A DNA stretch of 64,000 bases from Luteolibacter sp. SL250 (GTDB lineage: Bacteria > Verrucomicrobiota > Verrucomicrobiia > Verrucomicrobiales > Akkermansiaceae). The DNA lies in contig NZ_CP113054.1 in NCBI RefSeq assembly GCF_026625605.1, positions 3,038,001-3,102,000 of the forward strand, given 5' to 3'. Both the position numbers and the translations under genes were made by a program. This document shows positions 44,599 to 60,817 of the stretch, in pieces; within the stretch, counting starts at the first letter, position 1; every line of letters starts with the position of its first letter. The notes below the pieces were generated by a model. That model did no database searches, was not told the DNA's origin, and saw only the letters and a list, made by a program, of their open reading frames with translations.

Positions 44599-45768
44599 GT
44601 GTCACCTGTCCTCGTCATCCTCCTGCTGATCCCCCTCATTTCCATGGCTTGGCTTTTCTGGGCCTTGCGGCGGTTGCGTCGGCTGGAAGTCCACCCTGCC
44701 ATCACCACCGTGATGGCGGCCAGTGTGATCGGTATCCTCTGCTGTTTCATCTGGATCGTGCTGGCGAGACAGGAAATCGCACCCAAGGTCCCCGGCGGGC
44801 CGTATTCACTGGTCCTGCTGTGGGGGCTGTTCGCGCTGCCGCTCATCGCCCTGCCGAGCATGATCGGGTGGGCGTTCTTCAAGATCTCCAAGGCAATCAC
44901 CGGCAGGAACAAAGCCGCGGAAACCTCCCCGCCGACGGACCCCACCCGCCGCCGCGTGCTGGGCGCGGTCGCCGTCAGCCTGCCGGTCGTTGCGACGTTC
45001 GGGACCGCCGCCATCAGCATCCCGCAGCGGACCCGTTTCCGTATCCGCGACATTACGGTCCCCATCAAGGACCTGCCCGCCGATCTCCACGGGCTGCGGA
45101 TCGCCCATCTCAGTGACACCCATGTGGGCAAGTTCACCCACGGGAAGCTCCTCCACGAACTGGCGGACGCCACCAACCAACTGAAGGCCGACCTAGTACT
45201 GATGACCGGCGACCTCATCGACCAGTCCATCAACGATCTCCCCGAGGCTCTCGACATGATGGCACGCATCGATCCCCGGTCCGGCCTTTATCTGATCGAG
45301 GGCAACCACGACCTTTTCCAAGGTCCGGAGAAGTTCGCGAAAGGCGTCCTCGACCGGGGGTTCAACCTTCTCCGGGATGAAAACGCGGTGGTGACCACCA
45401 AGGGCCACCCCATCGAGCTGCTGGGCATCCGCTGGCACGGACGGAACAAACCCATCGATCCCCACGTGGATGAGGTCTCCAACAACCGGAATCCGGAGGC
45501 GCTGCCCATCCTTCTCGCCCACCACCCCCATGCCTTCGACCGCGCGGCGGAGCTGGGTATTCCGCTCACACTGGCCGGGCACACCCACGGCGGCCAACTG
45601 ATGGTCACCCCGGATATCGGGCCTGGGCCGATGCTCTACAAATACTGGTCCGGACTCTACCGGAAGCCGGGAGCCAGCCTGGTGGTCAGCAACGGTGCCG
45701 GAAACTGGTTTCCTCTCCGATCCGCCGCTCCCGCGGAGATCGTCCACATCAAACTTATCCGGACCTGA
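44599..45768 (+). CDS. Membrane-anchored metallophosphoesterase (YkuE-like)
   Basis: A 389-residue protein starting at GTG. Three N-terminal membrane segments (about residues 3-22, 38-57 and 70-95) are followed by a fourth hydrophobic stretch (LGAVAVSLPVVATFGTAA) after the motif TRRR. The calcineurin-like domain (about residues 155-389) has all metal motifs: LSDTHVGKF, MTGDLID, EGNHD, LLAHHPHAF and GHTHGG. YkuE-type enzymes act on phospholipid-related substrates such as UDP-diacylglucosamine, but no substrate is evident here. It lies between the toxin gene and nitrate reductase. A role in nitrate assimilation is not obvious. Confidence 0.82.
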   Translation: MSPVLVILLLIPLISMAWLFWALRRLRRLEVHPAITTVMAASVIGILCCFIWIVLARQEIAPKVPGGPYSLVLLWGLFALPLIALPSMIGWAFFKISKAITGRNKAAETSPPTDPTRRRVLGAVAVSLPVVATFGTAAISIPQRTRFRIRDITVPIKDLPADLHGLRIAHLSDTHVGKFTHGKLLHELADATNQLKADLVLMTGDLIDQSINDLPEALDMMARIDPRSGLYLIEGNHDLFQGPEKFAKGVLDRGFNLLRDENAVVTTKGHPIELLGIRWHGRNKPIDPHVDEVSNNRNPEALPILLAHHPHAFDRAAELGIPLTLAGHTHGGQLMVTPDIGPGPMLYKYWSGLYRKPGASLVVSNGAGNWFPLRSAAPAEIVHIKLIRT

Positions 45769-57889: not shown

Positions 57890-60817
57890 TTGAAGGATGG
57901 AGCCGTTGGGATTGAATGGCAGCTTCAGAGAACCCACCGTGAAACTCCGCCACCCATCCACCGGTTCCGGGATGTGGCCGGCCGTGCAACGATGCATCGC
58001 CGTGCTTTCCGTCGCCGGCGTCAGTCATGGCGCCATCATCGATACGGATGTCTGCGTCTATGGAGGCGCGGCCGTGACACCACCGGCCGCGCCTCCATCA
58101 TCGATACGGATGTCTGCGTCTATGGAGGCGCGGCCGGTGGTGTCACGGCCGCCGTGCAGGTGAAACGGATGGGGAAGTCCGTGGTGCTGCTGAACTTCAA
58201 CAACCACCTGGGCGGCCTGAGCTCCTCCGGACTCGGACAGACTGACATCGGCAGTTTTGGAAATGACTACATCCAGGGACTGTCACGGGAGTTCTACACC
58301 CGTGTCGGCGCGAAATACGGAGCCTCCGGCGCCAGGTTCACCTTTGAGCCGAAGCGGGCTGAGCAGGTCTTCGATGAAATGGCGGCGGATGCCGGGGTGC
58401 CGGTCCACCATTTCTCCCGGATCGAAAGCGTGGTGATGAATGGCCAAAGGATCGTCTCCGTCACCATGGACAACGGGAATGTCTTCCGGGCGACGATGTT
58501 CATCGACGCGTCCTACGAGGGTGACCTGCTGAAGAAAGCCGGTGTGAGCTACACGGTGGGACGGGAAGCGAACGCCACCTATGGTGAAACGATCAATGGA
58601 ATCCAGCGCAACACTTCCGGCCATCAGTTCGACCGCGCGGTGAGCGCCTACGTCGTCCCGAACGATCCCTCCAGCGGCCTGCTGCCAGGCGTGAACCCGA
58701 ATCCCAGCGGGGCGAATGGCACCGCGGATGGCCTGATCCAGGCCTACTGCTTCCGCATGTGCCTGACGAACGTCCCGGCGAACCGGGTGATGATCACGAA
58801 ACCGGAAGGCTACAATGAAGCGGAGTATGAGATCCTTTTCCGCTGGATCGAGTCGAACCCGGCCACGTTCACCCGCACGCGGTTCTTCAAGTGGGACGGC
58901 ATGCCGAATGGAAAAACGGACTCGAACAATGACGGTGCCGTATCCTGCGACTACATCGGCGGGAACAACAACTACGTCGAGGCGGACTATGCCACCCGGG
59001 AGCAAGTGGTGAGGGAGCATGAACGATGGCAGCGGGGGCTGGTCTGGACGATCCAGAACCACCCGCGCGTGCCGGAGAACATCCGCACCGCCAACGCCGC
59101 CTGGGGCCTGCCGCTCGACGAGTTCCCCGACAACAACCATTGGCCCTATCAGCTCTACATCCGCGAGGCCCGGCGCATGATTTCCGACTATGTGATGACG
59201 GAGAAACACTGCACCGCGGTGGAGGTCGCGCCGGACTCCATCGGCCTGGCGGCCTACACGATGGACTCCCACAACACGCAGCGCTACGTGAATGCCAGCG
59301 GCCATGTCCGCAACGAAGGGGACGTCCAGATCAATGTCAAAGGTCCCTATCCCATCTCCTACCGGGCGATCGTGCCGAAGGTGGGCGAGTGCGAAAATCT
59401 GCTGGTCCCCTGGTGCCTGTCCGCCAGCCACGTTTCGTTCGGCTCCTTCCGGATGGAGCCGGTTTTCATGATGACCGGCCAGTCGGCCGCGACCGCCGCA
59501 TGCTTCGCCATCGATGACGGCGTCTCCGTCCAGCAGGTATCCTACCCGAAGCTGCGGGCGCAATTGCTGGCGGACAAGATGAAGCTCACCGTGGCCAGCA
59601 CGGAACCGGTGGGCGGCATCATCGTGGACAATGCGGATGCCACCGGGGTGACGACCACCGGCGAGTGGCTGGCCAGCAGTGCCAGCACCGGCGCGCACAA
59701 CGGCAGCTACCTCCACGACAACAACACGGGCAAGGGCACGAAGTCCGTCCGCTACACACCCACCCTGCCGGAGCCAGGAAAGTATGAGATATTCCTCCGC
59801 TGGGCGGAAAATGGAAACCGGGCAACGAATGTGCCGGTGGACATCAATCTGCCCGCCGGCACCACCACCGTGTCCGTCAACCAGAAGACCAACGGCGGTG
59901 CCTGGAACTCCCTCGGCGAGCATACCTTCAACCAAGGATTCTCCGAAACGGCGGGCAGCGTGACCATCCGCACGAGCGGGACGTTGATCGATGTGAACAA
60001 CGGCTATGTCATCGCGGATGCGGTGCGCTTCGTCCACCGGGACGGCACCGTCCCGGAGCCCGATGTCCGGGTGTCACTGTGGGGGGCGAACACCACTACG
60101 GCGGAGCCCTACGGCCCCGGCGCACCCGTCGGGCAGATCGTTCTCAGCCGGACGCAGTCAACCACCCAGCCGCTGACCGTCCAGCTCGCCGTCTCCGGAG
60201 ATGCCACCCCTGGTTCCGACTATACGGCCCTACCAGCCACGGCGACTTTCCCCGCCGGAGCGGCGACGGTTTCGCTCCCCATCTCCCCGCTGGCCGACAC
60301 CTTGGCGGAGGGCACGGAGTCCGTCGGCGTGGCGCTTGCTCCGGGTGCAGGCTACCTCGCGGATACCACCGTCCAATCCGCCAGTGTGGCCATTCATGAC
60401 AGGCCGTTTGATGATTGGCGGCATTCGAAATTCAACGCCGCCCATCTCAATGATCCCTCCATTTCCGGAGATCTGGCCGACCCGGACGGCGATGGATTGA
60501 ACAATCTGCTGGAGTTCGTTTCCGGGAGTGAGCCGCAGGCTGGAGACCCGACTCCACCGGGCACCCGCGGCAGCATCGTCATCGGAGCCGCGGGCTACCA
60601 GACACTCACCTTCCGCAGGCGGATATCTCCGGACATCTCCTGTGTCGCGGAGGTATCGCCGGATTTGGTGGACTGGCGATCCGACCCCGGTGCGGTGGAA
60701 CTGACGACCATGGAGGACGATGGACGAATGAGGACGATCCAGGCAAGGGACCTGACTCCGGAGACGGCGGCAGGGAAACGCTTCATCCGGCTGCGCGTGG
60801 TGCGGGCGCAGAACTGA
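57890..60817 (+). CDS. FAD-dependent oxidoreductase with golvesin-like, Calx-beta and shared C-terminal modules; 5' end disrupted
   Basis: The frame is good from about 58096 to 60817: the FAD site IIDTDVCVYGGAAGGVTAAV, LNFNNHLGGLSSSGLGQTDI, a FAD_oxidored core to about residue 570, a golvesin/xanthan-lyase-like domain (PEPGKYEIFLRWAENGNRAT ... VIADAVRFVH), a Calx-beta domain (TVQLAVSGDATPGSDYTALP), then the DPDGDGLNNLLEF ... KRFIRLRVV module. The first about 69 residues in this frame are Arg-rich and unlike a leader. The true leader (MWPAVQRCIAVLSVAGVSHG, from 57972) is in another frame, shifted by a 62-base duplication at 58033-58136. Removing it would join leader and FAD domain exactly. So this may be a recent pseudogene or an assembly error. 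Confidence 0.65.
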   Translation: MKDGAVGIEWQLQRTHRETPPPIHRFRDVAGRATMHRRAFRRRRQSWRHHRYGCLRLWRRGRDTTGRASIIDTDVCVYGGAAGGVTAAVQVKRMGKSVVLLNFNNHLGGLSSSGLGQTDIGSFGNDYIQGLSREFYTRVGAKYGASGARFTFEPKRAEQVFDEMAADAGVPVHHFSRIESVVMNGQRIVSVTMDNGNVFRATMFIDASYEGDLLKKAGVSYTVGREANATYGETINGIQRNTSGHQFDRAVSAYVVPNDPSSGLLPGVNPNPSGANGTADGLIQAYCFRMCLTNVPANRVMITKPEGYNEAEYEILFRWIESNPATFTRTRFFKWDGMPNGKTDSNNDGAVSCDYIGGNNNYVEADYATREQVVREHERWQRGLVWTIQNHPRVPENIRTANAAWGLPLDEFPDNNHWPYQLYIREARRMISDYVMTEKHCTAVEVAPDSIGLAAYTMDSHNTQRYVNASGHVRNEGDVQINVKGPYPISYRAIVPKVGECENLLVPWCLSASHVSFGSFRMEPVFMMTGQSAATAACFAIDDGVSVQQVSYPKLRAQLLADKMKLTVASTEPVGGIIVDNADATGVTTTGEWLASSASTGAHNGSYLHDNNTGKGTKSVRYTPTLPEPGKYEIFLRWAENGNRATNVPVDINLPAGTTTVSVNQKTNGGAWNSLGEHTFNQGFSETAGSVTIRTSGTLIDVNNGYVIADAVRFVHRDGTVPEPDVRVSLWGANTTTAEPYGPGAPVGQIVLSRTQSTTQPLTVQLAVSGDATPGSDYTALPATATFPAGAATVSLPISPLADTLAEGTESVGVALAPGAGYLADTTVQSASVAIHDRPFDDWRHSKFNAAHLNDPSISGDLADPDGDGLNNLLEFVSGSEPQAGDPTPPGTRGSIVIGAAGYQTLTFRRRISPDISCVAEVSPDLVDWRSDPGAVELTTMEDDGRMRTIQARDLTPETAAGKRFIRLRVVRAQN
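57939..58074 (+). pseudogene. Displaced signal peptide and first strand of the FAD oxidoreductase
   Basis: In this frame a GTG at 57939 or ATG at 57972 opens a signal peptide (MWPAVQRCIAVLSVAGVSHG) running straight into AIIDTDVCVYGGAA, the first copy of the FAD-binding strand. The frame then enters the fold-back insert and ends in nonsense. It is the natural 5' end of the oxidoreductase, separated from the rest by the duplication. Confidence 0.6.
58033..58145 (+). repeat. Fold-back duplication: 42-bp direct repeat with inverted spacer
   Basis: A 42-base segment at 58033-58074 recurs exactly at 58095-58136, offset by 62 bases. The spacer region 58075-58096 is the exact reverse complement of 58124-58145 downstream of copy two. 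So the sequence runs forward, switches strand for 22 bases, then restarts. The 62-base insert changes the reading frame. Confidence 0.9.

Follow-up and report, generated by a model that had tools for sequence, protein, structure and literature searches.

Here, we report that a gene for a secreted FAD-dependent oxidoreductase in Luteolibacter sp. SL250 carries, in its 5′ part, a small inverted triplication that was probably made by one replication template-switch event. The insert lies in a 64,000-nt stretch of the genome, all of which was analysed (hereafter, the window; positions refer to it unless stated otherwise), and it is probably a real, recent-looking, gene-inactivating template-switch scar. 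In such a scar, a single replication error would combine duplication, inversion and frameshift.

Results

Architecture of the insert

Sequence comparison bore out a 42-bp exact direct repeat around a 20-base spacer, which had been reported in the preliminary description. The two copies are identical at 42/42 positions, their starts are 62 nt apart, and the net gain is 62 bases, or 2 modulo 3 (Table 1). An exact inverted copy of downstream sequence had also been reported; the inverted match stood, although its length did not, as the pair extends over 31 nt instead of 22 nt, with 23 nt separating the arms. A core of 15 nt is found twice in forward orientation (58060-58074 and 58122-58136) and once inverted (58084-58098). 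Both junction matches, of 7 nt and 4 nt, end sharply, with no complementary base further outward. By comparison, first-order Markov copies of the window (n = 20) had direct repeats within 200 nt of at most 14 nt and inverted pairs of at most 15 nt. The segment 58060-58160 is predicted to fold at −51.6 kcal/mol as single-stranded DNA (z −8.9) and at −82.8 kcal/mol as RNA (z −8.8). A promoter scan returned one consensus match at the insert, at 58074-58101, against a shuffle mean of 0.1.

Table 1 Features of the oxidoreductase gene and its insert, in window coordinates
Feature	Position	Strand	Remark
Nominal ORF in the FAD frame, 975 aa from TTG 57890	57890-60817	+	First ~69 residues are leader DNA read out of frame
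Leader frame: GTG start, KLRHPSTGSGMWPAVQRCIAVLSVAGVSHGA segment, first IIDTDVCVYGGAA, frameshifted tail, TGA 58161-58163	57939-58163	+	
FAD-dependent oxidoreductase body	58097-60817	+	Profile matches
Direct-repeat copy 1, 42 nt	58033-58074	+	Sequence comparison
Direct-repeat copy 2, 42 nt, FAD-domain frame	58095-58136	+	Sequence comparison
Spacer, 20 bases	58075-58094	none	Belongs to the inverted copy
Inverted 31-nt copy of 58122-58152	58068-58098	−	Putative product of backward synthesis
Template arm, putatively copied backwards	58122-58152	+	Over DNA encoding the dinucleotide-binding loop YGGAAGGVTAA
Junction microhomology, 7 nt, GCGGCCG	58068-58074 with 58146-58152	none	
Junction microhomology, 4 nt, CCAT	58095-58098 with 58122-58125	none	

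The insert separates the leader from the FAD domain

We read the reading frames from the sequence as it stands, with no in silico deletion. The signal peptide and the FAD domain are out of frame with each other, as had been claimed: copy 1 (58035) shares the frame of GTG 57939, from which copy 2 (58097) departs by 2. In copy 1 the leader frame encodes IIDTDVCVYGGAA, beyond which it diverges until its TGA; the FAD frame reads IIDTDVCVYGGAAGGVTAA across copy 2. The KLRHPSTGSGMWPAVQRCIAVLSVAGVSHGA segment resembles a signal peptide, with GTG 57939 as the putative start and a putative cleavage site. Hydropathy peaks at 2.27 in the leader frame, compared with −0.39 in the FAD frame upstream of copy 2, and the latter is arginine-rich just upstream of that copy. 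Over 57939-58074, the codon score of the leader frame was +9.5 against −20.7 and −17.9, the last being that of the FAD frame, which scored +37.4 past the insert. Once copy 1 was omitted, the margin of the leader frame was small (+2.1, compared with −11.4 and −5.9 for the other plus-strand frames and +0.6 for the best minus-strand frame). The FAD frame upstream of the insert looks non-coding. It is nonetheless open back to TTG 57890, so that automatic annotation may call one long leaderless gene.

Downstream of the insert, the body comprises 906 codons with no internal stops. Its domains are FAD_oxidored (residues 5-490, a match spanning the full profile), Golvesin_C (508-646) and a Calx-beta-like domain (681-768) that scores below its cut-off. 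An NCBIfam scan of the body matched no family, and the literature on Golvesin/FAD enzymes in the source phylum offered nothing useful by titles and abstract starts. Translation of the leader would yield a short dead-end peptide and leave the FAD domain without a signal peptide; probably the gene is inactive, or its product fails to reach its normal location. A restart at a GTG that overlaps the leader-frame TGA in the FAD frame was rejected as a rescue of the enzyme, because its product would omit the GGxxGG loop. Loss of the secreted enzyme is likely and is perhaps tolerable, since the family has further members in the genome: 21 matches to the oxidoreductase protein were found in it, the gene itself included.

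Homologous loci lack the insert

At least one match to the oxidoreductase protein was present in 59 of the 61 genus genomes examined. A DNA search of 73 genus genomes gave matches in 27, the source genome included; those in the other genomes cover parts of the gene at 63-73% identity, so that no near relative is at hand by which to date the insert. A second collection yielded 17 homologous loci, from genera of Verrucomicrobia, Planctomycetes and Bacteroidota and one of Capsulimonadaceae.

After removal of 2 rows beginning beyond residue 12 and 8 duplicates, 78 tblastn rows left 68 homologous starts, 13 of them from the source genome; the join and motif analyses accepted starts up to residue 8 (n = 67). 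The FAD strand continues upstream in a single open frame in all 68 starts. At the G+C of this DNA, an open join is by itself weak evidence, the FAD frame of the interrupted gene being open upstream too. An in-frame hydrophobic peak of at least 1.5 was found in 61/68 starts, compared with 22/136 off-frame readings. The seven starts without a strong in-frame peak were those from L037, L038, L041, L043, L044, L046 and L047, and several of these have a long upstream frame in place of a leader. No direct repeat of at least 15 nt within 300 nt was found at any of the 67 homologous joins. Because the homologues examined lack the insert, it is a derived state, gained in the source lineage, as judged against distant homologues.

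A proposed single-event mechanism

The earlier reading of the insert as a template-switch signature agrees with its structure: a switch in two steps predicts the forward-reverse-forward order, the exact copies and the short junctional microhomology (7 and 4 nt). This structure suggests an origin during DNA replication. On the numbering of the intact copy downstream, a nascent minus strand moving leftwards would reach 58095, where its last 4 bases would fold back onto its own sequence at 58122-58125. The folded strand would then use itself as template for 27 nt, up to 58152, and its new 3′ end, the 7-nt CGGCCGC, would realign with the top strand at 58130-58136, from which normal synthesis would restart. 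On this scheme, 35 nt would be synthesized twice, and 27 + 35 = 62 would account for every inserted base. The identical sequence would arise by the mirror-image route, in which the nascent plus strand switches between strands; this route is equally compatible.

Across 40 stretches of the genome, GC skew changes to positive near 0.3 Mb and back to negative near 2.9 Mb, although the signal is noisy: 2/22 stretches of the positive arm and 3/18 of the negative arm have the opposite sign. In the window the skew is −0.09. If these changes mark the origin and terminus, a fork at 3.1 Mb would head to lower coordinates, placing the fold-back on the leading strand and the gene head-on to the fork. The dnaA gene lies at G000:C1:1058328-1059677 (1.06 Mb), distant from the skew change near 0.3 Mb.

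Rarity of the scar and a possible artefactual origin

The identity of all 42 + 31 repeat positions, together with a body free of further lesions, points to a recent event or else to an artefact. Fold-back chimeras arise by the same chemistry, and such a chimera, formed by amplification or end repair, could have entered the consensus; the intact 906-codon body fits a recent event and fits an assembly error as well. We consider an assembly or library artefact, an alternative that the preliminary description had left standing, unlikely. The genome is one contig of 4.92 Mb with 98.88% completeness, a chimera would have to outnumber normal reads, and overlaps of 4 and 7 nt at the junctions would be below what an assembler's own join needs.

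Systematic scans point the same way. With strict thresholds (direct repeat at least 18 nt, inverted at least 15 nt), none of 20 stretches gave a match. Relaxing both thresholds to 12 gave 4 matches in 0.8 Mb of the source genome, 1 match in G004 and 3 in G050, both of them further single-contig genus genomes sampled over 0.4 Mb, and 1 match in two 0.8-Mb Markov copies. The relaxed counts are higher in real DNA than in Markov copies, indicating that short chance-like or repeat-derived cases exist. No second scar with both repeats at least 20 nt, as might be expected to recur with an artefact, was found in the 0.8 Mb of the source genome (40 stretches of 20 kb) or in the 0.4 Mb each of G004 and G050. 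The rarity of the scar argues against a systematic assembly fault; a single event gives no rate. The insert may instead be a minority variant in a mixed population.

Two other kinds of inverted repeat were seen in the genome. One is a dispersed family of the GGAGCGCGGACTTCAGTCCGC type, REP- or MITE-like, with arms of 21-25 nt and loops of 28-30 nt (L082:18481, L096:2170, L097:3880 and, as a variant, L096:15000); three of its four copies lie at 3.9-4.2 Mb. The other has TAAGGAGGGAGGACA-type arms and loops of 11-93 nt (L089:18498, L095:3894 and L095:9017).

Inverted repeats at the GGxxGG loop and the question of a switch

In segments homologous to the GGxxGG-loop region of the gene (window 58116-58181), an inverted repeat of at least 7 nt was found in 15/67, compared with 7.7% of 2320 gene-body control windows. 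The motif segments have a G+C of 0.67 compared with 0.59 in the controls; in 40 composition-matched shuffles of these segments, 6.75 of 67 on average, and at most 14, held such a repeat, and in 40 shuffles of codon order the average was 6.3 and the highest count 13. This is a modest excess among segments that share ancestry, and the loop is a possible seed for template switching.

In principle, slippage could remove and restore the 62 bases and so toggle the leader, making the insert a maintained switch between on and off or between secreted and cytosolic forms. Repeats of 42 bp that flank a hairpin lend themselves well to slippage, both frames are open, and an inverted triplication on an E. 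coli plasmid reverts to the original sequence, about half by day 4 and roughly level afterwards (PMC13334657). Reversion of the present insert by slippage between its 42-bp repeats is plausible. A maintained switch is nevertheless very improbable: loss would be easy and re-creation hard, so that the two directions are not symmetric, and the FAD frame looks non-coding upstream of the insert. Furthermore, the 67 related joins and motif segments held no comparable repeat element of the kind expected of a programmed invertible or phase-variable switch, the joins having no direct repeat as noted above and the longest inverted repeat in the segments being 10 nt.

An origin in two steps, in which 62 bp would first be duplicated in tandem and a 9-nt loop flanked by the 7-nt inverted repeats GCGGCCG/CGGCCGC would then be inverted, is scarcely credible: the downstream copy does have this 7-nt inverted repeat around a 9-nt loop, but the route requires two events and a coincidence, and it is disfavoured by the four bases before copy 2, predicted to be CGTG and in fact GCCT, which extend the inverted match, and by the inverted length, 23 nt from loop inversion compared with the 31 nt seen.

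SbcCD and persistence of the scar

The SbcD model TIGR00619 did not pass its cut-off in the source genome and passed it in 1/73 genus genomes, with matches at E 0.001 or better in 42/73; 8/14 control genomes pass the cut-off, and a divergent SbcD would be missed. The weak match to this model in the source genome (22.9 bits) fell in a 389-aa ORF at 44599-45768, which resembles a membrane metallophosphoesterase. The SbcC model, a poor test that 1/14 controls pass, matched at 26.1 bits in a 1260-aa ORF, presumably SMC-like. The SbcD C-terminal domain (SbcD_C) had no match in the source genome and was found in 6/14 controls, and AAA_23 gave 12 matches, 4 over the cut-off, the best of which alone was inspected. 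Canonical SbcCD, the hairpin nuclease, thus went undetected by models of limited reach, a circumstance that may help the scar persist.

On E. coli plasmids, strains without sbcC, sbcD or rep retained the inverted triplication to day 15 (PMC13334657). By extension, hairpin scars in a lineage without canonical SbcCD would go uncleaved, and secreted-enzyme genes would be kept in off-states that revert slowly, with the GC-rich GGxxGG loop as a natural seed of such scars because its Gly/Ala codons tend to be self-complementary. We regard this extension as distinctly unlikely; if its link to missing SbcCD were true, it would predict which bacteria retain such scars.

Discussion

The insert is a bacterial example, perfect to the base, of a class of small mutations known from yeast and cancer genomes and, at the kilobase scale, from E. 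coli. It also carries a warning for annotation: a gene caller may predict a single long ORF here, with a meaningless basic N-terminus that conceals the loss of the secretion signal. Among the titles and abstract starts surveyed, no sub-100-bp inverted triplication in bacteria was apparent, although one may have been published.

Among the closest likenesses, and one that the preliminary description did not draw, are the small inverted triplications (SIT, DUP/IN/DUP) described in PMC13334657, which share the forward-inverted-forward order and for which a fold-back or 3′-flap origin was proposed, comparable to the fold-back suggested here. The present insert has the architecture of 42 nt, 31 inverted nt and 42 nt around a threefold 15-nt core, with reverse-complementary microhomology at both junctions, as a two-switch origin requires. 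Its junctions of 7 and 4 nt compare with a median of 6 bp in that report, and its spacers, 23 and 9 nt by our own reading, with a median of 30 bp; its sizes of 42/31/42 are below the medians of 148/160/148, and both 42 and 31 are inside the reported ranges (PMC13334657). Those triplications came from yeast and cancer genomes, with their loss tested on plasmids in E. coli and yeast, whereas the present one lies in a bacterial genome.

A two-switch fold-back model was likewise put forward for palindrome-mediated insertions in rad27 yeast, one of which, of 66 bp, combines palindrome expansion with a short duplication (PMC5677150). That insertion was seen against a known parent, in a eukaryote without Rad27. 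Inverted triplications in lac amplifications of starving E. coli are bacterial too, and their authors infer two inverted template switches with junction microhomology of 3-30 bp (PMC3161906); however, these were selected amplifications on an F′ plasmid, and the inverted duplications embedded in them measure 5.2 to 42.6 kb, compared with 31 nt in one gene here. Quasipalindrome-associated template-switch mutations in E. coli similarly use the nascent strand as template at an inverted repeat, but they improve an existing quasipalindrome (PMC7202029), whereas the present event created a new 31-nt arm and a 42-nt duplication. Quasipalindrome correction, which leaves no flanking duplication, was rejected because the 42-nt duplication accompanies the inverted copy. 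Taken together, the architecture of the insert matches the published description of small inverted triplications, a type of mutation already described in other organisms.
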